Positions 8,577-64,000 of a stretch of DNA of 64,000 bases are shown here, in pieces. The stretch is from an uncultured Alphaproteobacteria bacterium (lineage in GTDB: Bacteria; Pseudomonadota; Alphaproteobacteria; Micropepsales; Micropepsaceae). The notes beneath the pieces are model-generated. The model ran no database searches and was not told where the DNA came from. It saw only the letters and a program-made list of their open reading frames with translations. Every line of letters begins with the position of its first letter. The stretch's first letter is position 1. The translations under genes were made by a program, and so were the position numbers. The stretch lies in the NCBI GenBank assembly GCA_903862715.1, contig CAIOYY010000087.1, forward strand, positions 110,377 through 174,376, written 5' to 3'.

Positions 8577-9500
8577 TTAGCGCTTGGACGACAGCAGGAA
8601 GGTCTGAAGGTCGGAGGCAAACGAGCGATATTTCTCGTTGATGACCTTATTACGACGAACAAGCAGGTTGTAGGTGATAACCGCAGGCACCGCCACGGCG
8701 AGACCGATGGCCGTCATGATAAGCGCTTCACCGACAGGACCGGCAACGCGGTCGATTGATGCCTGACCGGCAATACCGATGGCGGTAAGAGCGTTCAAGA
8801 TACCCCACACCGTACCGAAGAGACCGACGAACGGCGCCGTCGAGGCCACGGAAGCGATGAAGGAAATGCCGCCCTGGAGACGCGCGCTTTCTTCTTCAAC
8901 CGCACGGCCGAGCGACATCGACACCCAGTCGGCCTGCGTGAGCATGCCGCCTTCGCGCGCCATCGCCTGCTGACCGCGCTCCGCGACGTTGCGGAACACA
9001 TTGTTCTTACCGAGCTTCTCGATCCCTTCTTCGAGCGAGTTCGCCGTCCAGAATTTCTTTTCAGCGACTTTGGACTGGCTGAGCACGCGATGCTGTTCCC
9101 AGTACTTCACGAAGAAGATGTACCAAGAGCCGGCCGACATGATCACGAGAATGAAGAGAACGGTTCTGGCCACCATGTCGCCTTCTTCCCACATATGGAC
9201 GATACCATAGGGGTTTTCGACAACTTCGGTGGTGGGCTCTTCAATGCCGGCCGGGCCAGCTGCCGGAGCAGCGGCGGGGGCATCCGCGGTCGGAGCCGCG
9301 AACGGGTCGGCGGCGGGAGCCGCAAACGGGTCAGCCGCAGGAGCGGCAAACGGATCGGCTGCCGGCGCGGCAGCGGCTGGTGCCGCTGCATCCGCGGCAG
9401 GAGCCGCATCCATGGCATTGGCAGGGCCAAAGCCCATCATAAGGGCAACGATTGCTGAGGCGATCGTCAAGGTCTTCGCGTTCATTCTACTCTGCTCCAT
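8577..9500 (-). CDS. exbB: MotA/TolQ/ExbB proton channel family protein with signal peptide and Ala/Pro-rich N-terminal extension
   Basis: VASTAPFVGLFGTVWGILNALTAIG...GPVGEALIMTAIGLAVAVPAVITYN. Confidence 0.93.
   Translation of the reverse strand: MEQSRMNAKTLTIASAIVALMMGFGPANAMDAAPAADAAAPAAAAPAADPFAAPAADPFAAPAADPFAAPTADAPAAAPAAGPAGIEEPTTEVVENPYGIVHMWEEGDMVARTVLFILVIMSAGSWYIFFVKYWEQHRVLSQSKVAEKKFWTANSLEEGIEKLGKNNVFRNVAERGQQAMAREGGMLTQADWVSMSLGRAVEEESARLQGGISFIASVASTAPFVGLFGTVWGILNALTAIGIAGQASIDRVAGPVGEALIMTAIGLAVAVPAVITYNLLVRRNKVINEKYRSFASDLQTFLLSSKR
9270..9380 (-). repeat. short in-frame tandem repeat encoding PAADPFAA units in ExbB N-terminus
   Basis: PAADPFAAPAADPFAAPAADPFAAPTADAP. Confidence 0.85.
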
Positions 9501-9589
9501 CCTTACGGACGCCTCGCGTCCCTAGTGCAAAAGAAACGGTATCCAAATTTCATGAAACTCAAATCTTTAGATTGTCCCGACGAGGGGCT

Positions 9590-10249
9590 CCGCTATTGGA
9601 GTGCCCAACGCACCGCCTGGTTTTGGCAAAAGCGAACCGCCTGATCACCCTGCATGGCAGGGTTATAGTCGAACCTGCCGCGCACCATGCGAATGGTTGC
9701 CTCATCCAGACGTTCAAAGCCGCTCGATTCGACCATCGTCACATCGCTGACGTCGCCATTGGCTTCGACGCACACATTCACGACGACTCGGCCCTGCTCC
9801 TTCAAGCGAATAGAGATCTGCGGATAGTCACGCGCGGTCACGCGGTTTCCATTACCCGAGTCCGTAAACGGACGAATGGGCGGCGGCGGCGGCGGCGCAG
9901 CGGCCGGCGGCGGCGCCGCGCGATCGGTGACCTGCTGGATGGCCGTCGTATTCTGCGCAGGCGCAGGCGCAAGATTGATCACGACGGACGGCGGCGGCAC
10001 AACCGGCGGCGGCGGCTCGAAATCGGGCGGCGGCGGCGGCGGCGCGAGCTCTTCGACCATCTCTTCGGCGACAACAACCGTTTCGAGGTTACCGCGCACA
10101 AGATCCATCGTCGCGCTGGCCAAACCGTTAATCAGGGCCCACACCAACAACAGATGCAGAGCCACAACGAAGAGGATACCCGGCAAGCGGTTCTTCTTCA
10201 TTTTCTTCAGCGGCGGTGGCCGCAAATTTTGCATTCCTGCGTCTGACAT
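9590..10249 (-). CDS. tonB: energy transducer TonB
   Basis: Single N-terminal TM, proline-rich spacer PPPPPPDFEPPPPVVPPP, C-terminal GRVVVNVCVEANGDVSDVTMVESSGFERLDEATIRMVR. Confidence 0.9.
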
Positions 10250-10906
10250 TTTCGATCTACCCGAAGAGCCATTCCTGGCAAGATTTGCTGAGCGCGATGC
10301 TCATGCGTGTTGGCTTCCCCCGCCTATTGGGTCGTTGCCCAGAGGCGCATCCTATTACCCCATTAGGAATAATTTTAACACCCCCTTCATAATGGTCCAG
10401 TCCCGAGATCGATTATTTTAAAACCCGCCATAACAGGCGATCACGCCCATTGCGAGGCAAGTCCCCGGATCAACACCACTCCCCCAATACGCGAGATATT
10501 TATGTGTTCGCGTAACCTTCATAACGGGATCAATGTGCAATCTAACACTTCGATTGCAAGCAATTTTTTTGCGTCACTACCTTCCTTGCAGTGCAGCAAA
10601 AAGCTCTCGCGTTGATCACATTCCCAAAAGACGCGAATCCTCTGGAAAATCCTAGAATGTTTGGACCCGCATACCCCAAAACTGTGACAGTTCGCGCAAG
10701 GCTGAAACGTTTTGGACGCGCCCCAGGGTGCAGAAAAATTTGCGGTAGGACGCGTGCAGGACGAGGATGTATAGGGGCACAGCACCCATCTACCAGCGTC
10801 CCTCGCCGCTCCAACACCGGCAAAATACGCGCTAATCCTTCGCGGTTTAAGCTCTTCTAAGTTCTGTCAACCGCGAGACGCCGTTGCCGTCCCGCTTCCC
10901 ATCGCA

Positions 10907-13900
10907 TCAGAATCGGCTGGTCATGGTTACGGTCGCGGACTGGGCAAAGGCACCGGAGGTTTGCGCCGCGTCATAGTTGAAACCGGCCGACCAATTGTCG
11001 AACAAATACTGGAAACTCGCGCCGCCGATAAGCCGGGAGTCGCTGGATTTGGGCCCCACGACGGAGAAATCAGATCCCGCCACTGCCTCAAATGAGGCAT
11101 CGATAACCGGACGGTCACTGATAAGCTCCTGGCTCCAGCCCGCGAGAATTTGCGGCTTCAGAATACCGTCATCGAGCATGAATTCGGTCTGGGCGATCAC
11201 GCCAGCAAACAAACGCACGGAACTGGTCGTGCGTGAATCGAGATTGAGGTTCACGCCATTGCCGCCAAAACGTTCCGTATAGGCGGTTTCATACATATAG
11301 AGACCATCGACGCTGATATGCGGGATGATATCGAAGCCTCCAACATTGAACAGGAAGCCCGACGAAACGCCGCCCGAAGTGAGGTAGGTGCTCCAGTCGG
11401 AGATCGGGGTGCGGGTAATCGCACCCGCTACGACACGGCGGCGATTGTCATAGGAGGCATAGCCGACATTGACCTGCGGTGTGATGAAGAAATTGTTCCA
11501 GCGCCAGTTCGCATAAGCCGAAACAAGATTCAACGCGATGTTCTCCTTGGTCGCGCGCGGATTGCTCTCGGTCACCTGTCCAGCGAAATAGCTATAGCTG
11601 ATGCCGTACCGTGCGTTGGGAGAATCACCCCACTCGACGCCGCCGGAGACGCCCAGACCACTGCCGAAATAGCTGGTGGATGAGGATGTCGTGGCGCCGT
11701 TCATGTCTTCGTAAAATTGCTGGCCCCAAAAGCGCAGCCCCTCTTCCGGATTGGTAACGAGATTACGTTGCCGTCTGCCGATCGGCCCATTCACGCTGTC
11801 GGTAACCGCGACGGTGAGCGCGCGCGCGCCCGCGCCAATATTTGGAACGAGTGAATCCAGCGCTTCTTCCACACCGGCCTGGTTGGTGATCGAAATCAGT
11901 CCCCGCCCGAAAAGATCGTCCTCGCGCGCGGCCAGCGCTGCGGCCTCATAAATCGCCGCGCGATTTCCGGTCAGTCCCAAATCGGCAGCGGTTTTGCGTT
12001 GAAGCGAGAGGCTGAGCACATCTTCGCCAACCAGCGCATCGTCGAAAATGAAGGAGGTCGTATAAAGATAAGGCGCAGCGAATGCTGTTGCCTCTTCGTA
12101 GTTCTGGAACGTGATGCCGCCTTGCGCCGAGACAAGGTCGAAAATCCCGCCATCGGGCAGAAAGGAAAGCGAGGAGAAGCCGACGCGCGAGCCCTCCTGA
12201 AAGGCGACCGAACCGCTGGCGACGACAATCGGTTCGTCACCCGGTTCGAGCGCGAGTACGAATTCCAGCGTACCCTGACTGTCACTATCGGTGCCCGGAC
12301 CGGTGCCCGGACCTATCGTTATATCGCGCGCCTGCGCTTCCGCAGTGCGTAATGTACCGTCGGTGATCTTGATATCTACGCCGCCGCCATTCGGCGTTAG
12401 AATGCGGCCCTCGACGAGCGCTCGCGAAACACCATCATCATTGCTGATCCGTCCGTTGATATTCAGAACGTTGTCGACGGCGGTGCCAAAGAGGATGTCG
12501 CCACGAATGGCGGCAGCGCTGAGGCCATTTTCCTTCTCGGTGTTGTTAATCGTGACCTTCGTCGTAGCCGCGGAAACATCGATGGCAATCGCTCTCGAGC
12601 CCGGATCGGTAGTCGTGACCGTGGTTTCAATAAAGCCCGTATTGTTGATTGTCGTCAGTGTTCCCGACAGATCTCGAATGCCGTAGGCGACAATGTTGTC
12701 ATTCTCGACGTCCGTGGTCACGGAAGAAGCATTGATGGCCGAATTATTATTGATCAGCGGAAGATTACCGCCGTCCTCGATCAGGATGGCCGTCGCTGTA
12801 CCGCCCTCGGGCCCACTGGTCGATGCGCTGACATTGCCATTATTATAAAGCTGCGGAACGGATGCGCCCTCGCCGATGATCAACCCTGTGGCATTAGAGG
12901 GAAGGGGGTTTTGCAGTTCGGCCGCGGTCAGCAACGTGCTGCTCGACGCGGTCGCTCCGATACCCCCATTGTTGTAGATGCCGCCAGCGAACGTAACGGT
13001 GTGGACGCCATCGCCCTCTATCCGGAAGCCTTCCGAATTCACGCCGGGTTCAAGGCCATCGGTTTGAACGGTGCCTCGGTTCACGAAGGAGAAATTGCCG
13101 ACATTGTCCACGACGATCGGATCGTCGTCGTCATAACCTTCGAACAGACCGATGGCGACGTTTCCGGTGGCACCACCGACGGTCGGCGAAATATAGACGG
13201 CGGGCGCACTGCCGACCGAACGGATCTGCGCCGGAGCGTTGCCGTCGAGGTCGGTGATGGGGCCTTGAACATAAAAGCCGCCGGTGACATTGGCTCCGAT
13301 GGCCACGGTTGCGCCAGACAGAGGATCAAGATCGGTCGCGGAAGGAAGCGCCGTTCCGCGCGTAACCACATTGGCATTGAATACGATCTGGCCATCTATT
13401 TCGGCTGCCGTGACGATGCCCCGGGAATTTAAACCGTTTACGGCGATGGAGCCGTCAAAGGTTAGATCTCCGACAATCCTTCGATTGATCGCAACCCCTG
13501 TGGACTCGTCGCCGTAAAGAACAAAAGTAGCCGCGTTTCCAAAAGAAATATTGCCGGTAAAGGGGTCAAGCGTGTCCCCGTCGCGACCGACCATAATACC
13601 GGTAAGATTGGTGCCGACCTCGATGTCGGGGTTGGTTTCACCCATCAAGAGACTGCCCGAAAAACTCAGATTCCCGGTATTTCCCGATTCAATATAGATG
13701 CCGATTCCATCGTCGCCCGCCGAATGGGTCAGCTGGGCGCCGCTTTCCACCGTGATGTCGTTGTTGGAATCGAGATTGAGAATGGCAACGCCTTCATCGT
13801 CGATGGTCACACGGCCGGTGTCTTCAACCGTGATATCGCCGGAAGTCGATGTCGAAGCGGGTGTCGTCCGTGTGCCGTCGATAACCAGTTCCGGATCGGC

Positions 13901-25874: not shown

Positions 25875-26009
25875 TTTTCCTCCAATTCCTTCTTTCACTT
25901 CCCGCGCGGCCCCGCCGCCGCGGCGGGGATCTGCCGTTCCGCGCTTCGGGGCTGGCGGCCCCGGCGAAATCCCCCCAAGATGACCGCAAAACAACGGGGA
26001 GGATTTGGG

Positions 26010-26501
26010 ATGGGGTTGGGAGGACGGGCGGCGCTCGCCTGCGCAGTGGGATTCGCATTGTTCGCGCCCGCGCAAGCACAAGTCGTCATGCAGCGTAACG
26101 TGTCTCTGGAACTGGCGCGCGCCATCGGCGAAGCCGCACTCGGCGCCTGTCAGGCACTGGGCTACAATACGTCGATTGCAGTGGTCGATCGCGCAGGCGA
26201 CACGGTTCTTTTGATGCGCGGCACCAATGCTACGCCGCAAACCGCCGAAATGGCGCGGCGCAAAGCTTACACCGCGCGCATGTGGCGGCGTTCCTCGCAG
26301 CAATGGGCGGCGGAAACGCTGGAAGACCCGGAACGTTTTCCGCAGCGTGATCTTGCCGACGTATTGGCGCTTTCGGGCGGCATTCCGATTTCGGTCGGGG
26401 ACGATACGTTTGGCGGAGTCGGCAGCGCCGGATCGACCCTTCAGCAGGATCACGATTGCGCGCAGGCAGGCATCGACGCGGTCGCAGACCAGCTTCAGTA
26501 A
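26010..26501 (+). CDS. secreted GlcG/HbpS-family (haem-binding/degrading-like) protein
   Basis: Signal peptide ending AQAQ; LARAIGEAALGACQALGYNTSIAVVDRAGDTVLLMR...SGGIPI...DTFGGVGSAGS; start could be 25980. Confidence 0.82.
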   Translation: MGLGGRAALACAVGFALFAPAQAQVVMQRNVSLELARAIGEAALGACQALGYNTSIAVVDRAGDTVLLMRGTNATPQTAEMARRKAYTARMWRRSSQQWAAETLEDPERFPQRDLADVLALSGGIPISVGDDTFGGVGSAGSTLQQDHDCAQAGIDAVADQLQ

Positions 26502-26527
26502 GCATCTTCACGAAAAGGGTTTCGGCT

Positions 26528-27331
26528 ATGAGACAGATAGCGTTTCTCTGTGCGTTTTCCGTCGCTGCGATTGCCGTGAATGCGGCCGCGCAACAGGCGG
26601 TGCCGGACATTTCAGGCTATTGGAGCCGCGGCCAACCGGTGCATTCGGCGTTTCGCCCCCCGGAAAACGGTGGCCCGGGTCCTGTCATCAATATGAACCC
26701 GCCGCCCCCGGAAGCAGGCGGCGGATTCGCTATGATCTGGGAGGGCGATCATACCAACCCGATATTGCAGCCCTGGGCGGCCAGTATCGTGCAAGAGAAC
26801 ACGGTAACCGCGCTTGCCGACAACCCGCCGCTTTCCGCACAGCAATCCTGTCGTCCGCATGGTGTACCCTACATCCTGCAGCTGAACGACACCGTGCAGT
26901 TCCTGCAATCCCCGGAGATCACCACGATCCTCTTCTCGCGCGAGATGCGGGCGCGGCTCATTTATATGAATGTCGGCCACCCCGCCGATTGGGAGCCGAC
27001 CTATTACGGCCACTCGGTCGGACATTGGGAGGGCGATACGCTGGTCGTAGATACGGTCGGATTGACCGACGACACATGGACCGATCGGTTCGGAACACCG
27101 CACACGGACAAGCTTCATGTCATCGAGCGCTATCGCAAGGTTAGCGACGATGAAATTCGCGTCGATTTCACCGTGATGGATCCCGGCGCCTTCACGACAC
27201 CATGGTCGGCCTGGGTCACCTATCATCCCGAGGACAATCTCTATCTCGAACAGGTCTGCGCGGAGAACAACCGCGATCCTGTAACCGATACCGAATATCC
27301 GATCCCACGAGACGAGACGCCGGATTTCTGA
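26528..27331 (+). CDS. conserved hypothetical secreted protein
   Basis: MRQIAFLCAFSVAAIAVNAAAQ signal peptide; PDISGYWSRG...GHWEGDTLVVDTVGLTDDTWTDRFGTPHTDKLHVIERYRKV. Confidence 0.75.
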   Translation: MRQIAFLCAFSVAAIAVNAAAQQAVPDISGYWSRGQPVHSAFRPPENGGPGPVINMNPPPPEAGGGFAMIWEGDHTNPILQPWAASIVQENTVTALADNPPLSAQQSCRPHGVPYILQLNDTVQFLQSPEITTILFSREMRARLIYMNVGHPADWEPTYYGHSVGHWEGDTLVVDTVGLTDDTWTDRFGTPHTDKLHVIERYRKVSDDEIRVDFTVMDPGAFTTPWSAWVTYHPEDNLYLEQVCAENNRDPVTDTEYPIPRDETPDF

Positions 27332-27338
27332 TAACGAA

Positions 27339-28955
27339 ATGAACCGCAACCCACGCTATGATTACATCATTGTCGGCGCGGGCTCGGCAGGCTGTGTGCT
27401 CGCCCATCGGCTCAGCGAGGACGGTGCAGCGCGCGTGCTTCTTCTGGAAGCGGGCGGGCGCGATATACACCCCTTCATTCATGTGCCGCTCGGCCTTGGC
27501 CACATGCATAAGAAACGCATGTTCGACTGGGGTTATGAGAGCGAACCCGAACCCCATCTGAACCATCGGCGCATTGAAGCGATGCGCGGCAAAGTGCTTG
27601 GCGGTTCTTCGTCTATCAATGTGATGGCATTCACACGCGGCGCCCCCGGCGATTACGACCGCTGGGCAGCAAATGGCGCTACGGGCTGGTCCTATAAGGA
27701 CACGCTTCCCTATTTCAAGCGCGTCGAAACCTGGGAAGGCGGTGAAAGCGAAAGACGCGGCGGTGAAGGCCTTGTGGGCGTCGAATGGGCCAGGACCAGA
27801 GACCCGCTTTACGACGCCTGGATCGAAGCTGCGAAAGTTGCGGGTTATGGCCACACCCCGGATTATAATACCGCACCGCATGAAGGTTTCGGACGCAGCC
27901 AATATTCAATCCGTAACGGACGGCGTTCATCGTCGGCGACTGCGTATCTGAGGCCGGCCGAAAAGCGAAAGAATTTGACAGTTGTAACGCATGCTCTGGC
28001 GTTGAACATTTTGGTCGAGAACAGCAAAGCCATCGGCATCGCCTATGCGCGCGGAAATGAAAGGGTCCATGCCGAGGCCGAACGCGAAGTGATCCTGTCG
28101 GCCGGAACCTTCAATTCGCCGCAACTTCTGATGCTGTCGGGAATAGGCCCCGCCGCGCATCTGAAAGACATGGGCATCGAGACGATTGCCGATCTGCCCG
28201 TCGGCGAGAACCTTCAGGATCACCTCGCGGTGCAGATGATGTATTCGCGTCCCAATGCCGGGCCGTTCCGAGATGTCATGCGCTTTGACAGAATGACGCT
28301 GGGGCTGGTGCAAGCCTATCTTTTCGGATCGGGCGTGGCGACGATCGTCCCGGGCGGACTGCATGCCTTCATCAAGACGAAACCCGACCTTGCCGTGCCC
28401 GATGTCGAATTCATGTTTCGTGGCACGGCGCTGGGCGCACATCTGTGGTTTCCGTTTCTGCGCAAACCCTATCTCGACGGATTCGGCATACGCCCCACGC
28501 TGCTGCATCCGAGAAGCCGTGGCCGTGTGCGCCTGAAGTCTTCCGATCCGAAAGATCCCGTGCGGATCTTTCTGAATCTTTTGTCCGAACCGGAAGACCT
28601 TCCCGTGTTGCGCGACGGCGTGCGGCGGGCACGCGAAGTCGCGCATCAGGCTCCGCTCGATGCCTATCGCGGTGTCGAGACCGCGCCCAGCCTGAAGGCG
28701 AAGACCGACGAGGAAATAGATGCCTGGATTCGGCGCGTGGCCGTGACCGCGCATCATCCGGCAGGAACCTGTGCGATGGGCACAGGTTCCCACGCGGTGC
28801 TCGATCCGGAATTACGCGTGCGCGGCGTTGAGAATCTGCGCGTCGTAGATGCTTCGGCGATGCCCGATGTTGTCTCGGCCCATATCAATGCCTGTGTATT
28901 GATGATGGCCGAAAAGGCCGCCGACATGATCCGGGGCAAAGCCCCGGCGGCATAA
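27339..28955 (+). CDS. GMC family FAD-dependent oxidoreductase (choline dehydrogenase-like)
   Basis: [52 protein letters not shown]. Confidence 0.95.
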
Positions 28956-28993
28956 AGCGTTTGTATTCGGCGATAGAACCCGGAGGATCTCAG

Positions 28994-29857
28994 ATGGAAA
29001 ACACGACCAGGACAAGGCTCGAAATCATTCCGCTGACGAAATATATCGGCGCGGAAATCCGGGGCGTTGATTTACGGGAGAAACCGGACGCCGCAACGCT
29101 GCGCGCGATCTACCAAGCGTGGCTCGATCATCTGGTCGTTGTCTTTCGCGGACAGGAACTGTCGCAGGAAGACCTTGTCCGGGCGACGTCCTATTTCGGC
29201 GAACTCGGCGACATCGACCGGCCCGAGAAACATCACCCCAAGGGCTTTGCCCGCATGCTGCCCGGCATCATGCTGATTTCCAACATCCGCGAGAATGGCG
29301 AGCCCATCGGTGCGCTGCCGGATGGCGAGATGATGTTTCACCACGACATGATCCATCGCGAAGTTCCATCCCGGGCGACCATGCTCTATTCGGTCGAAAT
29401 CCCATCGTCAGGCGGCGACACGCTGTTTGCCAGTGGCTATGCGGCTTACGACACGCTCGATCCGCAAATCCGGTCGCGGCTCGAAGGCAAACGAGCCTTT
29501 CACCACTATAATTACGGTTCGACCCAGAAGGGCGACGGACGCGGCACCGAAGCGTTCAGCGAAGCCTCGCATCCCGTCTTCCGCACCCATGACGAAACAG
29601 GACGCAAGGCGGTTTACGTCAACCGTCTGATGACGGTCCGGGTCGAAGGCATGGAGGAGCACGAAAGCGACCGCTTGTTACAAGCGGTCTTCGATCACGC
29701 GGAAAAGCCGGAATTCGTTTACACCCATGTCTGGAGGACGGGTGACGTTCTTCTTTGGGACAATCGCTGTTCCAGCCATGCACGCACGGATTTTCCCTCG
29801 ACCGAGAGACGCCTTTTGATGCGCACGACGCTGAAAGGTTCGTTGCGGCCACAATAA
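28994..29857 (+). CDS. TauD/TfdA family Fe(II)/2-oxoglutarate dioxygenase
   Basis: GAEIRGVDLREKPDAATLRAIYQAWLDHLVVVFRGQ; MMFHHDMIH; DVLLWDNRCSSHARTDF. Confidence 0.93.
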   Translation: MENTTRTRLEIIPLTKYIGAEIRGVDLREKPDAATLRAIYQAWLDHLVVVFRGQELSQEDLVRATSYFGELGDIDRPEKHHPKGFARMLPGIMLISNIRENGEPIGALPDGEMMFHHDMIHREVPSRATMLYSVEIPSSGGDTLFASGYAAYDTLDPQIRSRLEGKRAFHHYNYGSTQKGDGRGTEAFSEASHPVFRTHDETGRKAVYVNRLMTVRVEGMEEHESDRLLQAVFDHAEKPEFVYTHVWRTGDVLLWDNRCSSHARTDFPSTERRLLMRTTLKGSLRPQ

Positions 29858-54257: not shown

Positions 54258-54261
54258 TGGG

Positions 54262-54334
<73 letters not shown>

Positions 54335-54419
54335 TCATTAAGGGTGCGGGGTATAGGTGATCGACCATGCTCTGTCCACCCCCTTAGGGACGACTAGAAT
54401 AGGCTGTAAAATCCGGGGT

Positions 54420-54974
54420 TTAAGCAGCCCGTCCGGCGGCGCGGCGTTCCGCAAGCCGCGACGGGATATCGGAGATCTCATAGGCGCCAAGTTTGAGTGC
54501 GGCGGCGATGGCGACCTGCGCGCAGGCCATCGCGTCCTCGGCGGCGTTGTGGTGCTTGAAGGTAATGCCGAGGTGGCGCGCGAGATGGCCGAGCGCCTTC
54601 GACTTCAGTTCCGGCCAGACCTGCCGCGCGATCATCAGTGTGCAGAGGAAATCCATGCTCGGCGGCTTCACACGGTAGGATTTCGCACAGCCGTGGAACA
54701 CGCCTTGGTCGAAACCGGCATTATGCGCAAGCACCAGCGCGCCTTCGAGATCGCCCCGGAACTCTTCCAGCACTTCCGGGAATTCCGGCTTGTCCCAGAC
54801 ATGATCAGCGGTAATGCCGTGGCACCAGGTGAAGGTGAAATTCATGTCGCGCGGGCGGATATAACGTTCCTCCACCCGCGTGATGGTGAGCCCGTCGATC
54901 CAGGCCAATCCGATCTGGCAGGCATTGCCCGGTTCCGGACAGGCCGTTTCAAAATCGAGAGCGATGATTTTCAT
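54420..54974 (-). CDS. 3'-5' exonuclease (DnaQ-like)
   Basis: MKIIALDFETACPEPGNACQIGLAWIDG; LVLAHNAGFDQGVF; HHNAAEDAMACAQV. Confidence 0.92.
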   Translation of the reverse strand: MKIIALDFETACPEPGNACQIGLAWIDGLTITRVEERYIRPRDMNFTFTWCHGITADHVWDKPEFPEVLEEFRGDLEGALVLAHNAGFDQGVFHGCAKSYRVKPPSMDFLCTLMIARQVWPELKSKALGHLARHLGITFKHHNAAEDAMACAQVAIAAALKLGAYEISDIPSRLAERRAAGRAA

Positions 54975-55027
54975 GACCGGACCATATTTGAGTCGGCACT
55001 CTATCGACAACCGGTCTCGAGACAGCA

Positions 55028-55063
55028 AAAAGGCCCCGTATCGTGAAGATACAGGGCCTTTTG
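55028..55063. terminator. Rho-independent terminator
   Basis: AAAAGGCCC...GGGCCTTTT inverted repeat, T/A-rich flanks. Confidence 0.75.
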
Positions 55064-55079
55064 TCCTTAGGCGAAGCGA

Positions 55080-56216
55080 TCAACCAGGATAGACCGGTAC
55101 TGTAACCCGGTCGCCGAATACGGCCTGAAGGCCGGCAATCGCGCAGGCTTCGTCACCGCCGCCGGCACCGCCGCCGACGCCGAGCGCACCGATCAGTTCG
55201 CCATCGACGACGATCGGAAGGCCGCCGGATACGGCGTAGAAATTATACCAGAACACCGAACGCGGCATTCCCGACGGATCATTGCGAAGGCCGGCGGCGC
55301 GCACCGAGGTCGGCTGCTTGGTCTTGAGCGCCGTCTGCGCTTTCAACATCGCCGTATACATATTGTTGTAAACCTGTCCGTCCATCCGTTCGGAATGTAC
55401 GAAATTGCCCGACGGATCGAGAATGAACATCGACATCGTGCCGCCATGCTCCGCCGCCCAGGCGCGGCATGCCACAGCCACGCCGCGCGCGGCTTCACCC
55501 GAAATCTGGTTGGCGTCATAGATGCGGCCAGCCGCAGGTCCGGAGACAACGAATTCCGGCGGAAGGTTGGACGCTGGCGGATTGGCGATGCGGAAGGTCG
55601 GAACCGGCGCAGGATTGGCAGGCTCCGGCTGCTCGGGCTGCGGCAGATCTTCGAGCAGCGGCGGCTGGGGGCCGAGCACTTCCGTCAGCGCTTTATGGGC
55701 GCAGATTTCATCGCTCCAGCCTTCGGCGACACGCGGGGCGGAACCGCCCACGCCAATCGCGCCGATGAGCTGATTGTTGACGATGATCGGAAGGCCGCCC
55801 GAATTCGGGAAAAAGCCCAGTTGAATCTGTTGAAATTCCGCGAGGGGATTTTCGATCACGCGGTTCATGCGGTCCTTGCTCGGGATGCGGCCCATAAGCG
55901 CCGTACGCGCTTTCATTTCGGCCGTCGCAATCTGAATCCAGCCCTGACCATCCATCCGGTGCATGTAAACGGTGTTGCCGTCATTATCGAGAATATGAAT
56001 GCTGACCTGCACATTCTCTTCCGTCGCAAGACGTTCGCACGCCTGTGCGATGCGCTCGGCCGTTGCAAGATTGATCGTCGTGTAGTCGAGAATCTCTGCC
56101 GCCGTTTCGCCCGACACGACGAATTCGGCGGGAACATTCTGCGCGCTCGCGCCCGCCGCGATGGCCATAACCGCAACGGCCGAAAGCAATCCCATTCCAT
56201 AATAGCGTTTTTTCAT
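55080..56216 (-). CDS. secreted two-domain GlcG/HbpS-like protein
   Basis: Signal peptide ending GASAQ; two tandem domains with PAEFVVSG / PPEFVVSG starts and GGLPIIVNNQLIGAIGVGG / GGLPIVVDGELIGALGVGG. Confidence 0.87.
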   Translation of the reverse strand: MKKRYYGMGLLSAVAVMAIAAGASAQNVPAEFVVSGETAAEILDYTTINLATAERIAQACERLATEENVQVSIHILDNDGNTVYMHRMDGQGWIQIATAEMKARTALMGRIPSKDRMNRVIENPLAEFQQIQLGFFPNSGGLPIIVNNQLIGAIGVGGSAPRVAEGWSDEICAHKALTEVLGPQPPLLEDLPQPEQPEPANPAPVPTFRIANPPASNLPPEFVVSGPAAGRIYDANQISGEAARGVAVACRAWAAEHGGTMSMFILDPSGNFVHSERMDGQVYNNMYTAMLKAQTALKTKQPTSVRAAGLRNDPSGMPRSVFWYNFYAVSGGLPIVVDGELIGALGVGGGAGGGDEACAIAGLQAVFGDRVTVPVYPG

Positions 56217-56386
56217 TTGTTACCCTCCCAATGCGAAGAATGCCTTCGCCGTGAGGCAATCTTGCCCCTTCACCGGTAACGGTACAACCGCCGCAAGACG
56301 GTTCGCACCGCAGCAAAAAGGCCCCGCGCCAACATGACGCGAGGCCTGTTTCGCACTGCCGCAAAGGCGAGAGGGATCAGAACGGA

Positions 56387-57037
56387 TCAGTCACACGTTC
56401 CGCCCGTTGCGGGATCCGGGCCCGCGCCGCCGCGGCACCAGATCGGTTCGCCGGTAAAGGGATGGCGCGGCGGCTCGACGGGAAGAAGCGCCGGCTGCGG
56501 ACCGATCACTTGTGTCAGCGCATGATGGGCGCACATTTCATCGGTGAATTCCGGGGAAGCGGGCGCGCCGCCAACGCCGACACTGCCGATCAACTGATCA
56601 TTGACCACAATCGGCAGACCACCGGAATTGGTGAAAAGCCCATGCGCGCTCATCTGATACAGTTCATAGAATGGATTCATTCGCGCCTGATTCATACGCG
56701 CATGCGAGGGCTCGCGGGTGAGAAGCGCGGTGCGCGCTTTCATTTCCGCGGTGCGAATATTGTTCCAGCCTTGGCCATCCATACGATGCATATCGACATG
56801 GTTTCCGAACTGATCGAGGACATAGATGCTGACGCTTGTATTGTGTTCGGTCGCAAAGGCCACGCAGGAATCGACAATCGCTCGCGCGGTTGCCGCATTG
56901 ATCTGATTGAATTCCCTTATGTCACGTGCGGCTTCGCCCGAGACCACGAATTGTTCCGGCACATCCTGCGCCGATGCGCCCGCCGCCAGACAAAGTCCCG
57001 CGGAGAAAATCGCTGCCCCTAAAATGCTCTTTCTCAT
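56387..57037 (-). CDS. secreted GlcG/HbpS-like protein
   Basis: Signal peptide; PEQFVVSGEAA; GGLPIVVNDQLIGSVGVGG; DEMCAHHALTQVIGPQPALL. Confidence 0.88.
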   Translation of the reverse strand: MRKSILGAAIFSAGLCLAAGASAQDVPEQFVVSGEAARDIREFNQINAATARAIVDSCVAFATEHNTSVSIYVLDQFGNHVDMHRMDGQGWNNIRTAEMKARTALLTREPSHARMNQARMNPFYELYQMSAHGLFTNSGGLPIVVNDQLIGSVGVGGAPASPEFTDEMCAHHALTQVIGPQPALLPVEPPRHPFTGEPIWCRGGAGPDPATGGTCD

Positions 57038-57170
57038 TTCCACCCTCCGTAACGCGAAGAACGGCCTTCGCCCGTAGCCATCTTGCGTAGCCCTGAGAGG
57101 CCGTCAACGGGCGGATCTGAAACCGGTACGTTTTACCGATGAACCGTCAGTGCAAGGACGCGGCCAAGGC

Positions 57171-57614
57171 CTACCAGTTGGCGGTGTTGGGCATGGATGC
57201 CCAGGGTTCTTGCGGCGCGAGACGTTCGCCCTTTTGCAGCAATTCGATGGAAATGCCGTCAGGCGAGCGCACAAACGCCATCCAGCCATCGCGCGGCGGA
57301 CGATTGATCGTAACGCCTTTGTCCATCAGGCGTTGGCAGACTGCGTAGACATCATCGACCGCAAAGGCCATATGGCCAAAATTGCGCCCACCCGTGTAAT
57401 CCTCGGTGTCCCAGTTATAGGTCAGTTCCACCATTGGTGCTTCGGCGTTCGAGCGAGCCCGCGCCTCATCACTCGGCGCCGCGAGATAGACGAGGGTGAA
57501 TCGTCCCTTCTCGTTCTCGGTCCGGCGAATTTCCGTAAGGCCGAGCTTGTCGCAATAGAAAGCGAGGCTTTCCTCGAGATCTTTTACCCGAACCATGGTG
57601 TGCAGATACTGCAT
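57171..57614 (-). CDS. gloA: lactoylglutathione lyase (glyoxalase I)
   Basis: MQYLHTMVRVKDLEESLAFYCDKLGLTEIRR...LTYNWDTEDYTGGRNFGHMAFAVDDVY. Confidence 0.93.
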   Translation of the reverse strand: MQYLHTMVRVKDLEESLAFYCDKLGLTEIRRTENEKGRFTLVYLAAPSDEARARSNAEAPMVELTYNWDTEDYTGGRNFGHMAFAVDDVYAVCQRLMDKGVTINRPPRDGWMAFVRSPDGISIELLQKGERLAPQEPWASMPNTANW

Positions 57615-57656
57615 CGACGTCCTCTCAATCGGCGCTCTCACGGAGCCTGTTTCGTT

Positions 57657-59096
57657 TTAGCTTAAACCAAGGGGCGGCGTTCCCGCACGCCAAATTTCCG
57701 CGTTCAGATGATCGGCGGCGTCGGCTTTCAGTCGCTCGGGAACGACAAATGTTTGTCCGGCCCGGAGTGCATCCAGCATGCGCCGGCGCGATATTTCCGC
57801 CGACGTGAAGGCCAACGTCTCCAGCCAGGCGAGATTGACGGGCGCAGGTCCGTACAACGACGAAAACCGTTCGGCCAACACCAGTTGCTCAAGCGTACCG
57901 CCAAAAAACCAGTCCTGCTGATTTTTTCCTGGATCGATCGCATCGAAACGAGGGTTGGCCGGCCAGAAAGGCTCGTCCAAGGTTCGGCTTCCCCGCTGCA
58001 GGATTGCGGAAAAAGCATAAAGTGCATTTACCGTATGAATGCGCCGCCCTGTTTCCCAGCTTGCGCGCGCAAGGGTTGAGAGCCGCGCAAGCGTCGGACG
58101 CGTTTCGCAAAGCCGGGCAAGCGTCTGCTCGGAAAATTCCAGCGCAGCATGACGCTCGTTCAAAGGGAGCGCCGCGTCCTTCCATGCTGCGAGACCGGCG
58201 AGGGCATCTCGGTAAAGTGGATCGAGCGGTGTGTGTTTCTCGAATAGTCCCGTGAACGCGTCTGCATAGGCAAAGCGGCGCGGCGCTTCGAGCGCTTTGG
58301 CGCGCGCCGCTTCATCCGGAATCCACTTCGGAATGGAATTGACAAGAAGTCCTTCTGCGGCGAGGTGTGCCACCCGATCCGCTTTCGCCGCGAAAAGATT
58401 GAGTTCGAAGATATCCAATGGCGCGTTCGCATCGAATGGAACGAGAAGCGGCGAGCCGCCAAGGGCGCGGAACACACGATAACCCAGCGCTTCCAGGTAG
58501 GGTAGCAAATCGAGACTGGGTTTATCGCCTGCCTTTATCTCGAACATCACCAACGGCGAGTGGCGGGAAAAGAACGCCTGCGCTCCCTTTACGATACGCA
58601 CCTCTTCGCCTTCGGCATCGATCTTGACCAAGTCGGGGGACGGCCAATCCCTTATGTTGTCATCCGCATCAAGCGAGGTAATGGAAATGTTCTCACCCGT
58701 GCCGCGGCCGCCGAGGCTGTGAAGTTCGCCTGAACCGCCATGAAACAGAAAACCGTAACGTGGTGTATCGGAAAGCGCGGCAGGAAGGATATCCAGGTTC
58801 GTGAGGCCGTTTGCCTCTACGCTCCGCCGCAGATAACTGCGCGCCTCCGCTGCGGGCTCATAGGCGTAGACATGCCCACCGGGACCGACTTTGCGTGCCG
58901 CCGAAACGGCATAGACTCCGAGATGAGCCCCAATGTCGATGACGCACATTCCCGGTCGCAGCCACGCGTCGAGGAAGATGACCTCCTTCTCAAACCATTT
59001 TTCCTGCTCTAACAGGACGTAAGTCGTAATCGCCTCCAGAGAGGGCGGCACGACCAGAATGGTGCCGCCGGCAAGACGGAGCGATAGTGCGTCCAT
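57657..59096 (-). CDS. FkbM family methyltransferase with long C-terminal extension
   Basis: MCVIDIGAHLGVYAVSAARKVGPGGHVYAYEPAAEARSYLRRSVEANGL...DLVKIDAEGEEVRIVKGA. Confidence 0.87.
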   Translation of the reverse strand: MDALSLRLAGGTILVVPPSLEAITTYVLLEQEKWFEKEVIFLDAWLRPGMCVIDIGAHLGVYAVSAARKVGPGGHVYAYEPAAEARSYLRRSVEANGLTNLDILPAALSDTPRYGFLFHGGSGELHSLGGRGTGENISITSLDADDNIRDWPSPDLVKIDAEGEEVRIVKGAQAFFSRHSPLVMFEIKAGDKPSLDLLPYLEALGYRVFRALGGSPLLVPFDANAPLDIFELNLFAAKADRVAHLAAEGLLVNSIPKWIPDEAARAKALEAPRRFAYADAFTGLFEKHTPLDPLYRDALAGLAAWKDAALPLNERHAALEFSEQTLARLCETRPTLARLSTLARASWETGRRIHTVNALYAFSAILQRGSRTLDEPFWPANPRFDAIDPGKNQQDWFFGGTLEQLVLAERFSSLYGPAPVNLAWLETLAFTSAEISRRRMLDALRAGQTFVVPERLKADAADHLNAEIWRAGTPPLGLS

Positions 59097-59221
59097 AGAA
59101 CCGGAACCTTTTTCAAAAAGCGGCTACGCCGTATCAGATCTGGGTGCGAATCGGGAGGCAGCCGGGAACCGAAGGGCGTCACCGCCGCTTTCTATATAGC
59201 CCCCGCTTTGCCGGATTATCC

Positions 59222-60109
59222 ATGCTTCGCGCCGTCTGGAAAACCCTACAGGAATCCGTCGACATTTTCTTCGCGGCTTCGGGCCCTACGCGGGGCGCGG
59301 CGATCTCCTTCTACGCGGTTACAGCCTTCGTTCCCGTGCTCGTCATCGCCATTGCCATCGCCGGCTTCTTCTTCGGCGAAGAGGCGGCGAGGGGCCGTAT
59401 CGTCTATGAGCTCCGCGGACTGATCGGCGAGGACGGCGCCGGACTTCTTGAGAGCGCCATCCAGAGCGCGTCGAAGTTGTCGGAAGGTACCTTCGCCACT
59501 CTGGTCAGCATCGCCGGTTTCGTCGTCATTTCTTCCGGCGTTTTTCTTGAACTGCGCGACGGCCTGAATGACATCTGGAAAGTACAGCCGCGAGGCGAAA
59601 CGCTTTCGCGCTTTATCAGGGCGCGCGCCGCTAGTTTTGGCCTCGTTGTTGCGATGGGATTTCTTCTCCTGATTTCGCTGGTCACCGACGCGGCCATTAC
59701 ATTCTTCACGGATGCGCTCAATGCGCGCCTGCCCTTCGGCGCCGCGATTCTGAGGGGACTGAATTTTTTCGTTTCCTTTGCCATCATCGCTGCCGTCTTC
59801 GCCGCGATCTATCGGATTCTGCCCGCGAAGAACCTGACATTCCGCAATGTGGCGCTGGCCTCCATCGTTACGGCAGCTTTATTTCAGGTTGGAAAGGTTC
59901 TGATTGGCACTTATCTTGGAAGCGGCAGCGTCGGATCGAGTTATGGGGTTGCGGGCGCGCTTATCGCCCTTCTTTTCTGGGTGTATTACTCGGCGCAGAT
60001 TTTTCTGTTCGGAGCCGCGCTGTCGCACGTTCTGTTGCGAGAACGCCCCGATCTTACCGGCAGGGAGATCCCCACCCGAGAAGAGCAAGTCCCTTACGCC
60101 CCAAACTAG
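59222..60109 (+). CDS. YihY/BrkB family membrane protein
   Basis: GAAISFYAVTAFVPVLVIAIAIAGFFFGEEAARG...GSVGSSYGVAGALIALLFWVYYSAQIFLFGAAL. Confidence 0.92.
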   Translation: MLRAVWKTLQESVDIFFAASGPTRGAAISFYAVTAFVPVLVIAIAIAGFFFGEEAARGRIVYELRGLIGEDGAGLLESAIQSASKLSEGTFATLVSIAGFVVISSGVFLELRDGLNDIWKVQPRGETLSRFIRARAASFGLVVAMGFLLLISLVTDAAITFFTDALNARLPFGAAILRGLNFFVSFAIIAAVFAAIYRILPAKNLTFRNVALASIVTAALFQVGKVLIGTYLGSGSVGSSYGVAGALIALLFWVYYSAQIFLFGAALSHVLLRERPDLTGREIPTREEQVPYAPN

Positions 60110-60119
60110 CGATGCACCG

Positions 60120-60159
60120 AAAATGAACAAGGCCCCGAAATCGGGGCCTTGTTCATTTT
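60120..60159. terminator. bidirectional terminator between convergent genes
   Basis: Perfect inverted repeat AAATGAACAAGGCCCCGA-AA-TCGGGGCCTTGTTCATTT. Confidence 0.88.
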
Positions 60160-60174
60160 GCGCGAACGAAATGC

Positions 60175-60741
60175 CTAAGGATCCTGCGTGAGCGGCGGCT
60201 GTCCGCCGATCACTTCTTCCAGCGCACGATGGGCACATATCTCGTCGCTCCATTCCGGTGGGCGGGCATTGGAGCCGCCCACCCCGATGAAACCGATGAT
60301 TTGATCGCCAGCCCAGATGGGAAGCCCGCCCGCATTAGGGAGCAATCCAAGATAGATCTCCCGCGTGGTCGCATTAGGATCGCGCGTCACATTGTTCTGA
60401 CGCAGATGCGTAGGCGCGCGTGTCAACCGTGCCGTCGCGGCCTTGCGCTGGGCAAACATGACCGACGTCAGCGTGTTGCCATCCATGCGGCCGGCATAAG
60501 TAAGACTGCCGAGATTATCGGTAATGACGATCGCCATGGTTTCACCGCGCTCAGCGGCAATTCTCATGCAGGCTTTGGCAATCGCCTCGGCGGTTGCGAA
60601 ATTGATGGCATTCATTTCGCCGGTCATCGCGGCGACGTCGCTGGAAACGATAAAGCGCGGATCGACCTGCGCAGCAGCGGGCATCGACATCGTGAAAATC
60701 GCACCGAACAGGGCAAGCCGTGTGAAAATGCTATGTCTCAT
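60175..60741 (-). CDS. secreted GlcG/HbpS-like protein
   Basis: Signal peptide; VDPRFIVSSDVAAMTGEMNAINFATAEAIAKACMRIA; NAGGLPIWAGDQIIGFIGVGGS; DEICAHRALEEVIGGQPPL. Confidence 0.88.
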   Translation of the reverse strand: MRHSIFTRLALFGAIFTMSMPAAAQVDPRFIVSSDVAAMTGEMNAINFATAEAIAKACMRIAAERGETMAIVITDNLGSLTYAGRMDGNTLTSVMFAQRKAATARLTRAPTHLRQNNVTRDPNATTREIYLGLLPNAGGLPIWAGDQIIGFIGVGGSNARPPEWSDEICAHRALEEVIGGQPPLTQDP

Positions 60742-60836
60742 GTGAACCCCCGAATGGAATTGTCCGAAAGGTGTCGCCCCAAAAAACAGGGCAGAGAGGG
60801 CGTTGCCGTATGGCGAGGCCCTCTCTGTTCCACGAT

Positions 60837-61421
60837 CTAGTTGCGGGGCAGATCCTCGACCAGCGCCGGCTGCGGGCCAATGACCTCTTCCAGCGCACGA
60901 TGGGCGCAAATTTCGTCGCTCCATTCCGGCGGTCGCGGGTTCATGCCGCCGACGCCGACAAAGCCGATGATCTGATTGCCTACCCAGATGGGCAGGCCGC
61001 CGGCATTCGGGAAGTAGCCGAGATTCCATTCGCGCACTTCCGACGCCGGGTTCTGGATGACGGCGTTCATGCGAAGCTTGGAAGGACGGCGCGTGAGGCG
61101 CGCGGTTTCGGCTTTGAGTTCGGCGGTGTGGATCGCGGTGTAACGCGCCGCGCCGTCCATACGGTGCTGATGCACGACATTGCCAAAATTATCGAGAATG
61201 ACAATCGCCATACCCATATTGTGTTCGACCGCCATGCGTTCACACGCTTCCGCGATGCCTTTGGCCGTCGCGGCATTGATCATGTTCATTTCGCCGTTTA
61301 CCGCGGCGTCCTCACCGGTAATAACAAATCGCGCATCGACCTGCGCCAGCGCATTCGCGCTCGCCATTGCCGAAAAAGCGCCAACCATCAGACCGCCGAC
61401 CCAATTTTTATTGAGCTTCAT
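60837..61421 (-). CDS. secreted GlcG/HbpS-like protein
   Basis: Signal peptide; VDARFVITGEDAAVNGEMNMINAATAKGIAEACERMA; GGLPIWVGNQIIGFVGVGG; DEICAHRALEEVIGPQPALVEDL. Confidence 0.88.
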   Translation of the reverse strand: MKLNKNWVGGLMVGAFSAMASANALAQVDARFVITGEDAAVNGEMNMINAATAKGIAEACERMAVEHNMGMAIVILDNFGNVVHQHRMDGAARYTAIHTAELKAETARLTRRPSKLRMNAVIQNPASEVREWNLGYFPNAGGLPIWVGNQIIGFVGVGGMNPRPPEWSDEICAHRALEEVIGPQPALVEDLPRN

Positions 61422-61621
61422 TCTTCCCTCCCATAGGTTACTGGATGCTTCTGCGCATCTCGTCGGGGAGCATGCCAAGGCCGGGGTTCCAAGGCAATTC
61501 CGGCGCGCGTCACTGGGCGAGAACCCGCCGTTGTGACGGGCTTTTTTGCAGCAGGAACGCCCTATTCTGGGTTCGTGCGTTATAAGTTCAGTGTGCTGAC
61601 CCCAACCCCGAAGAAGGCCAA

Positions 61622-62122
61622 ATGACACAGGAAACGTCCCCTCGCTCGCTTGTCCGGGATGCTGCGGCCCTGGCCGGATTCCTGGTTCTTTGCTTCGCCA
61701 TATCGGGTCTAGGTGCGTGGGTAACCTCAACCAGTGTCGACACCTGGTATCAGACCCTCAACAAGCCCTCCTTCAATCCGCCGGCATGGGTGTTCGCGCC
61801 GGTGTGGACCACGCTCTATATCTTCATGGCCATCGCAGGCTGGCTTGTATGGCGCAAAGTCGGGTTTGGGCAGGCGCGTCAGGCGTTCGTCTGTTACTTC
61901 CTCCAGCTCGCGCTCAATCTCGTCTGGTCGTTCCTTTTCTTCGGGGCGCAAAGTCCCGGCGCCGCCTTCATCGAGGTCCTCGTCTTTCTGATTGCGATCA
62001 TCATGACCGCGACCCATTTCTCCCGTTTCGACAGAATCGCGACGCTGCTATTCGCGCCCTATATCGCATGGGTCGCGTTCGCCTCCGTCCTGAACGGAAC
62101 GATATGGTATCTGAATGGATAG
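61622..62122 (+). CDS. tspO: TspO/MBR family protein
   Basis: WYQTLNKPSFNPPAWVFAPVWTTLYIFMAIAGWLVWR; LNLVWSFLFFG; PYIAWVAFASVLNGTIWYLN. Confidence 0.95.
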   Translation: MTQETSPRSLVRDAAALAGFLVLCFAISGLGAWVTSTSVDTWYQTLNKPSFNPPAWVFAPVWTTLYIFMAIAGWLVWRKVGFGQARQAFVCYFLQLALNLVWSFLFFGAQSPGAAFIEVLVFLIAIIMTATHFSRFDRIATLLFAPYIAWVAFASVLNGTIWYLNG

Positions 62123-62155
62123 AAGCTGCGCCTTCCGTCAGGCGTGGCCACTTTC

Positions 62156-62767
62156 TCAGGGTGTCGCGGGACCGGGACGACTTTCCCATTCTTCCGCTTC
62201 GAGATTTTGCGGAAGCGGGGGCTGCGGCCCGACGACGGAAACCACCGCATCATAGGCGCATTTGTCTTCGTCATAAGTCGCGTTGCGATGCGCGCCGGGA
62301 ATGCCGCCCACGCCAATGGCGCCGATCAATTGTCCATCGACGATTATGGGCAGCCCACCCTCCTGCACGGTCAGATCGTAGCCAAACATGTGCGTCTGGG
62401 TAAACCGATCTTCGAAATTGCGATTGGTGAGAAGAACGGTAGGCCGACGGGTCCGCAGTGCGGTCATCGCCTTTTGTTGTGCGGCATTGATCGAGACGTA
62501 ACCCTCTCCATCCATCGCATGCTGATGAATGACCAGACCGTAGGGATTGAGGATTACGACGACCACGCGGCTATTGTTGCGCACTGCAATGGCTTCGCAG
62601 GCTTCAGCGATCGCCCGTGCGGTGGCGGCGTTGATCGAGATGCGGTCGTAAAGTTGCTCGGATTCCTCGCCACCAATGACGAATTGCGGATTCACCTGTG
62701 CCAGCGCAGTACCGAACGATACCGTTACCGCCGCCATCCCCAGACAGACTGCCCGACGAATGCTCAT
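62156..62767 (-). CDS. secreted GlcG/HbpS-like protein
   Basis: Signal peptide; VNPQFVIGGEESEQLYDRISINAATARAIAEACEAIA; EGGLPIIVDGQLIGAIGVGG; DKCAYDAVVSVVGPQPPL. Confidence 0.87.
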   Translation of the reverse strand: MSIRRAVCLGMAAVTVSFGTALAQVNPQFVIGGEESEQLYDRISINAATARAIAEACEAIAVRNNSRVVVVILNPYGLVIHQHAMDGEGYVSINAAQQKAMTALRTRRPTVLLTNRNFEDRFTQTHMFGYDLTVQEGGLPIIVDGQLIGAIGVGGIPGAHRNATYDEDKCAYDAVVSVVGPQPPLPQNLEAEEWESRPGPATP

Positions 62768-62912
62768 TCCCGCCTCCCTATTTTTTTGCTCTGCATGCGA
62801 ACGCATGGGCTAGCGAGCTTGGCGCAGCACACGTAACGCACGCAAGTAAAGAGAAGGGCAAGAAAATAGATCAATGAGAGCAAGGGTTAAGAGGTGGGCC
62901 TTAGGGTTCTGC

Positions 62913-63329
62913 TCATCCGCCGCAAAGAGCGTAACGATGTGCCTCGCCCTGTTCGTCCATGAAATCAGCTTCGTCGTCGCCAACCACTCGAATGCGTACT
63001 TCGCGCTCCCACACACGGCCTTCGCCTCGGCAGGTAGCGCGGGTGCCGAACAGATCCGGATCTTCTCCTTCTGGAGTTAAGGCGCCAAACCGGCAGCGCG
63101 AGTCGAAATAGGCGATTTCGTTGGGAAGAAGCGTAATGAAGACATCCTCGCCGAATGCCGCGAAGGCTTCGGGCCTATGTGTGACCGTGCAGGCTGCGGA
63201 GTCCGATGCGTAAACACCGCGCCGCAATTCATATTGGGAGTGTTCGCCGGCCCTGATCGCGGGCTCCGAGCAGGCCGCCGCGAGACAGCTAAGGGCAAGC
63301 AGCAGTGCGGACGGAAACGGGCGTGTCAT
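62913..63329 (-). CDS. hypothetical lipoprotein
   Basis: MTRPFPSALLLALSCLAAACSEPAIRAG signal with lipobox LAAAC. Confidence 0.65.
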   Translation of the reverse strand: MTRPFPSALLLALSCLAAACSEPAIRAGEHSQYELRRGVYASDSAACTVTHRPEAFAAFGEDVFITLLPNEIAYFDSRCRFGALTPEGEDPDLFGTRATCRGEGRVWEREVRIRVVGDDEADFMDEQGEAHRYALCGG

Positions 63330-63398
63330 GGACGTCTCCGCAACGGAAACAAAACAAACGCTACGAGACACTCCAAAAGTCGAACGATCCAAAATGCA

Positions 63399-63429
63399 AA
63401 AAGCCCCGCAGGAATACTGCGGGGCTTTT
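63399..63429 (-). terminator. terminator downstream of the rRNA operon
   Basis: AAAAGCCCCGCAG GAATA CTGCGGGGCTTTT. Confidence 0.85.
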
Positions 63430-63472
63430 GAATTTCGTTGTGATGCGGGGTTACTAAAACCGTGCTTGGCAG

Positions 63473-63589
63473 GCCTGGCAGCGACCGACTCTCCCACGTC
63501 TTAAGACGCAGTACCATAGGCGCTGGGGGCTTTAACGGCCGAGTTCGGAATGGGATCGGGTGGAATTCCCCCGCTGTGACCACCAGGCC
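63473..63589 (-). rRNA. rrf: 5S rRNA
   Basis: rc CCTGGTGGTCACAGCGGGGGAATTCCACCCGATCCCATTCCGAACTCGGCCGTTAAAGCCCCCAGCGCC...GTCGGTCGCTGCCAGG. Confidence 0.95.
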
Positions 63590-63689
63590 AGCAAAGAACG
63601 GGTATTAGGGTTTCGTAATATCTCGAACCATCGATCGCGTTCACGCAACCGAGATTTTCTCTCCAGACATGGAACTAAAGTGCCGAGTG

Positions 63690-64000
<311 letters not shown>

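Follow-up and report, generated by a model that had tools for sequence, protein, structure and literature searches.

A genus-wide expansion of HbpS-like (DUF336) proteins in Micropepsaceae and a two-domain member found across phyla

The HbpS-like array

Several genes for HbpS-like proteins (PF03928; HbpS-like/GlcG/DUF336) lie close together in a 64,000-nucleotide stretch of DNA, hereafter the window, from an uncultured alphaproteobacterium of the family Micropepsaceae (GenBank assembly GCA_903862715.1, contig CAIOYY010000087.1, positions 110,377 to 174,376). Five such minus-strand genes, named here after the positions of their stops (55080, 56387, 60175, 60837, and 62156), form an array in the last part of the window (Table 1). 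An earlier note on this DNA had listed them with a GlcG/HbpS-type domain in each and two in the first: all five are present and the stops given for them are correct. The profile search against PF03928 that it had proposed places all five genes in the family (E = 1e-47 to 3e-20, 73–162 bits against a cut-off of 25), with two matching stretches in 55080, and each of the six domains exceeds the Pfam cut-off. The core GGLPI...IG.(I/V)GVGG and the tail DE.CAH.AL..V.GPQP.L quoted in that note are both genuine and common to the array domains. The longest open reading frame (ORF) at 60175, reaching 61029, is too long, and the signal peptide begins at about 60741.

The relationship among the copies is visible even in the DNA, where in-register repeats are found in all six domains with 62–74% identity to the reference copy. 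The products of 60175 and 60837 are 60% identical, with a ratio of non-synonymous to synonymous substitution rates (dN/dS) of 0.23, and 60837 has an 81% identical copy on another contig (C102, locus L031; dN/dS 0.18). Since pairwise dN/dS values across paralogues and orthologues are 0.13–0.28, the HbpS-like copies are under purifying selection.

The N-termini of all five array proteins are signal-peptide-like by a simple heuristic, most of them with A-x-A^Q, and are of the Sec rather than the Tat type, in agreement with the Sec signal peptides assigned to them earlier; because 35% of the neighbouring genes also pass this unspecific heuristic, its outcome serves as supporting evidence only. As for the fold, an AlphaFold2 model of 55080 (predicted local distance difference test, pLDDT, 80.9; predicted template-modelling score, pTM, 0.82) has a DUF336 protein as its best match in the Protein Data Bank (PDB), and at E<1e-6 this model and that of 60837 (pLDDT 90.3, pTM 0.83) match DUF336-family structures only, namely OrfY, NahX, EfgA, HbpS, 4nkp, and PduOC. 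The best 18 Foldseek matches in the PDB all belong to this family with probability 1.00, indicating the GlcG-type profilin-like alpha-beta fold. Thus, the modelling recommended in the earlier note finds that the modelled array proteins resemble DUF336 structures and nothing else closely.

Table 1. Features of the array locus and a further HbpS-like gene in the window (d1 and d2, first and second domains; aa, amino acids).
Feature	Position	Strand	Basis or remark
Secreted-type two-domain HbpS-like (PF03928) protein, 378 aa	55080..56216	-	d1 ~aa 43-183, d2 ~aa 233-369
Single-domain secreted-type HbpS-like protein, d1 side of tree	56387..57037/57043	-	PF03928 E 6e-23, tree
Single-domain secreted-type HbpS-like protein, paralogue of 60837	60175..60741	-	PF03928 E 4e-21
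Single-domain secreted-type HbpS-like protein	60837..61421	-	PF03928 E 3e-20
Single-domain secreted-type HbpS-like protein, separate lineage	62156..62767/62806	-	PF03928 E 1e-21
Domain part of further secreted-type HbpS-like gene (ORF from 25980)	26088..26501	+	PF03928 107 bits; different subclade in tree
Glyoxalase I (lactoylglutathione lyase), inside array	57171..57614	-	TIGR00068 122.9 bits, cut-off 120
FkbM-family methyltransferase domain protein, syntenic neighbour	57657..59096	-	PF05050
TspO/MBR gene, inside array	61622-62122	opposite to array genes	
tRNA-Met(CAT), downstream border of array locus	54258..54334	-	ARAGORN
5S rRNA, upstream border of array locus	63473..63587	-	Rfam
LSU rRNA	63687-64000		Rfam

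Extent of the expansion

The multiplication of copies suspected from the window was borne out, and had even been understated, because it is genus-wide. The source genome (G000; 2.59 Mb, 88.9% completeness) carries 23 PF03928 domains in 22 genes, and the seven genomes of the genus have 6–23 domains each, the lowest counts coming from incomplete or fragmented assemblies. The corresponding numbers are 0–7 in 81 other sampled genomes of the order and at most 5 in an even sample of 248 genomes (≥90% complete) of other Pseudomonadota; the Pseudomonadota-wide search scored only 16 of the source genome's candidates, so that the valid count for this genome is the one given above. Genomes outside the genus that were located via the two-domain protein have 2–11 domains. 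The copy number is therefore exceptional and confined to the genus, a real and unusual expansion of an already known fold. About 19 of the HbpS-like copies in the source genome appear secreted by the same heuristic, while two (L025_010 and L028_010) are like the cytoplasmic GlcG and one (L030_016) is interrupted by a contig end. No paper on such an HbpS-like expansion was found in a literature search; its scale and the cross-phylum two-domain family described below appear to be unreported.

Phylogeny of the domains and the two-domain protein

The array had been regarded as the product of repeated local duplication of one module. This holds for 60175 and 60837, which are close paralogues, but the six array domains do not make up a clade: their monophyly was rejected by a constrained tree (approximately unbiased test, p-AU 9.2e-7). 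In the domain trees, array members fall within a well-supported clade together with genes from other places in the same genomes. Among the nearest relatives of 60837 and of 62156 are genes that lie at different loci or belong to different species. Genes 56387, 60175, and 60837 group with the d1 side of 55080; 62156 belongs to another lineage, in a clade with L038_006 and L052_004, and has relatives at other loci in other species, one of which, in G006, adjoins a molybdopterin enzyme. The copy at 26 kb, included in the phylogeny as the earlier note had advised, is in a different subclade.

Orthologues of the two-domain protein (55080–56216) are found in Acidobacteriota, Alphaproteobacteria, and Gammaproteobacteria, with 54–72% identity over the whole protein. 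Its halves, d1 and d2, form separate clades, each spanning phyla (SH-like approximate likelihood-ratio test, SH-aLRT, 96 each). With each half in its own cross-phylum clade, the trees place the divergence of the two halves, and their fusion, before the spread across phyla, and the separateness of the halves counts against repeated local duplication of one module. Furthermore, members from the genus fall among Acidobacteriota in the whole-protein tree, a placement that suggests horizontal transfer of the two-domain gene, with paralogy or mis-binned contigs as alternatives.

Borders of the array and neighbouring genes

In alphaproteobacterial rRNA operons, tRNA-fMet usually comes directly after the 5S rRNA. 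Here, by contrast, the 5S and tRNA-Met genes are about 9 kb apart (54258–63587), with the array between them. The locus is conserved in other species of the genus: the array of G006 is likewise flanked by 5S/23S rRNA genes at one end and by tRNA-Met(CAT) on the other side, and a tRNA-Met gene is also found at the downstream end of the array in G002 and G003. The FkbM-family gene recurs at the arrays of G001 and G006. The glyoxalase I gene is the sole strong TIGR00068 match in the source genome, and a single strong glyoxalase I gene adjoins the HbpS array in G001, G002, G003, and G006 too, that is, in all five species with a full-length copy. In three checked genomes of other genera (G015, G016, and G018), there is no such adjacency: the HbpS genes are on different contigs from glyoxalase I or a long way from it. 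The array genes do not make up one operon: a terminator-like hairpin at 56347–56319 separates 56387 from 55080, and two genes of the region, 59222 and 61622, are on the opposite strand; transcription as one unit was rejected on these grounds.

Outside the array, several HbpS-like copies adjoin genes for GMC oxidoreductase, molybdopterin, UbiD-like, amidohydrolase, or metallo-hydrolase proteins, as named from Pfam or by eye. In the window itself, a run of genes on one strand (25980–29857) comprises the further HbpS-like gene and genes for a Pfam-less secreted protein, a GMC oxidoreductase, and a TauD-like protein. NHL-repeat genes were considered as partners and discarded, being abundant and without general linkage to HbpS genes. 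A search for a shared upstream motif was unconvincing, the top 9-mer (8 of 62 HbpS genes) being a GC-rich word with shuffle maxima of 4–7.

Another secreted family, DUF6152 (PF19649), is likewise expanded, to 19–20 copies per genome in G000, G002, and G006. Co-location with HbpS genes was dismissed, since 4 of 58 DUF6152 genes lie within 5 kb of one, approximately as expected by chance, and a literature search on DUF6152 found no paper. DUF6152 genes are, however, next to the two-domain gene in several metagenome-assembled genomes (MAGs) of Gammaproteobacteria and Rhodospirillaceae. In three such loci (L085, positions 9122–12637, L086, and L106), a conserved cluster starts with the two-domain gene, followed by DUF6152, two secreted Pfam-less proteins, a DUF6152-like protein, and an aldo/keto reductase.

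Possible functions of the secreted modules

The best explanation, to be held tentatively and at somewhat less than an even chance, is that secreted DUF336 modules binding small organic ligands have been amplified and diversified throughout the genus, anchored by an old two-domain member. The array would be one part of this amplification, around a two-domain protein shared or exchanged with Acidobacteria. The proteins would be exported by Sec, and each domain may retain the family pocket around an invariant Lys and an acidic residue and be stabilised by a disulphide between Cys60 and Cys172 (60837 numbering). Cys60 is characteristic of the secreted clade, and Cys172 is present in 99 of 101 domains with Cys60 versus 31 of 46 without it, relatedness being uncontrolled in this comparison. 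In the AlphaFold2 model of 60837 one cysteine is on the first helix and the other on the last, and because these two helices run antiparallel side by side in the DUF336 fold (PMC4923194), the disulphide is likely. The modules may form oligomers, the two-domain form being a built-in dimer, and in the periplasm they could bind small organic molecules so as to sequester, buffer, or present them. The most likely ligands would be reactive carbonyls or carboxylates, and not haem in the PduOC style, with paralogues covering different ligands. This preference is suggested by the missing haem and iron residues (see below), by aldehyde binding as a documented DUF336 function in EfgA (PMC8153426), by the glyoxalase I neighbour, and by the enzyme neighbours of other copies. 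In its fullest form, in which some 20 disulphide-stabilised secreted DUF336 modules make up a periplasmic carbonyl/carboxylate-binding repertoire around a two-domain protein that has passed horizontally between Acidobacteriota and Proteobacteria, the proposal is possible, if on the unlikely side.

Several points weigh against this explanation. The formaldehyde site proposed for EfgA consists of K57, S114, and D121 (PMC8153426), and this set is incomplete in the array: the Lys (EfgA K57/HbpS K83) is found in all six array domains and in 65 of the 66 domains of the genus, and the acidic residue (EfgA D121/HbpS D143) in all six, as Glu in 62156, but the position of S114 is Gly in all six. Moreover, the corresponding K83–D143 salt bridge of HbpS is conserved among HbpS-like proteins (PMC3754957), so that the Lys–Asp pair, as a family mark in these alignments, is uninformative on the ligand and gives no aldehyde-specific signal. 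The adjacency of glyoxalase I and the array is one inherited arrangement of modest weight; with only one locus concerned, chance could account for it (~10%, by our own estimate). Glyoxalase-superfamily genes lie within 5 kb of HbpS genes in 6 of 43 cases versus about 2 expected, a weak enrichment.

Other functions known in the family have to be considered. The secreted proteins might be haem or tetrapyrrole binders, either haemophores or haem-degrading sensors like the HbpS of Streptomyces, and tetrapyrrole binding had been put forward in the earlier note. Indeed, they belong to the same Pfam family, which is named for a haem function; haem binding is known for HbpS and PduOC, and aquo-cobalamin binding for HbpS (PMC4923194); and there is a TspO gene within the array. 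The residues give no support, however: the position aligned to His18, the haem ligand of PduOC (PMC4923194), is K, E, R, E, R, and R in the six domains, and the iron motif discussed below is not conserved either. Nor does the array contain a two-component partner, and TspO was dropped as a tetrapyrrole clue because it is not conserved at the locus: the arrays of other species lack it, and four of the seven genus genomes yielded no TspO gene. Some haem binding may nevertheless occur, given that HbpS itself, which lacks the PduOC histidine, still binds haem weakly (PMC4923194). Judging from the aligned positions, the ligand is probably not haem held in the known (PduOC) manner, and the haem and tetrapyrrole functions as a whole are unlikely. 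It is improbable that the proteins are iron-sequestering cages guarding against Fenton chemistry like the HbpS octamer, for which protection from iron has been demonstrated (PMC3754957). Although the fold is the same as that of iron-bound HbpS (3fpw), HbpS has E78xxE81 as its core iron motif, and the double mutant E78A/E81A loses most binding (PMC3754957); in the array, positions 78 and 81 are A/Y/R/H/M/N and E/M/E/E/Q/Q, and the motif is intact in none of the six domains. Since 28 of the 66 genus domains have Glu at position 78, some non-array copies might still bind iron.

It is distinctly unlikely that the proteins sense reactive carbonyls in the periplasm and that this sensing is coupled to detoxification in the cytoplasm by the embedded glyoxalase I. 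While EfgA is a formaldehyde sensor (PMC8153426) and the sole strong glyoxalase I gene lies in or beside the array in five species, there is no signalling partner at the locus, glyoxalase I is a cytosolic enzyme, S114 of EfgA is unconserved, and the hairpin between array genes speaks against one operon. Finally, the array between 5S rRNA and tRNA-Met and the different copy numbers among species could reflect recombination-driven amplification of a gene family of little function near the rRNA operon. This is very improbable: purifying selection, with low dN/dS between paralogues and orthologues, already disfavours it, most copies are elsewhere in the genome, and the same locus is retained in several species.

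If small-ligand binding by the secreted DUF336 modules is true, their repertoire would be a new class of periplasmic ligand capture outside the known solute-binding-protein families. DUF336 proteins are common, and only HbpS, PduOC, and EfgA are biochemically well characterised (PMC8153426). About 20 secreted paralogues, together with a two-domain form with up to 72% identity across phyla, provide natural variation for resolving ligand and specificity. They also suggest that many secreted proteins, a large group, may be misnamed as "haem-binding" or "haem-degrading".

Comparison with known DUF336 proteins

HbpS of Streptomyces reticuli (PDB 3FPV/3FPW) is like the array proteins in the PF03928 fold, the secretion signal, and the Lys/Asp pair K83/D143, but it is exported by Tat and has E78xxE81 and the SenS-SenR partner, whereas the array proteins have Sec-like signals and neither the motif nor the partner. 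EfgA of Methylorubrum extorquens (PDB 6BWS/6C0Z) shares the fold and the single-domain form, and equivalents of its K57, T60, and D121 are present in the array; it differs as a cytoplasmic formaldehyde sensor with S114, in place of which the secreted-looking array proteins have Gly, and they have the Cys pair. The C-terminal domain of Salmonella PduO (PDB 5CX7), again of the same fold, is cytoplasmic with the haem ligand His18, while the array has neither this residue nor an adenosyltransferase domain. The nearest structures by profile and Foldseek are OrfY of Klebsiella (PDB 2A2L) and NahX of Pseudomonas (PDB 9JTH), both single-domain proteins whose aligned sequences lack an equivalent of Cys60. 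A further known relative is the unnamed two-domain HbpS-like family of Acidobacteriota and Gammaproteobacteria MAGs, orthologous to 55080–56216 in both domains, although its genes have different neighbours and were not seen within a tandem array.

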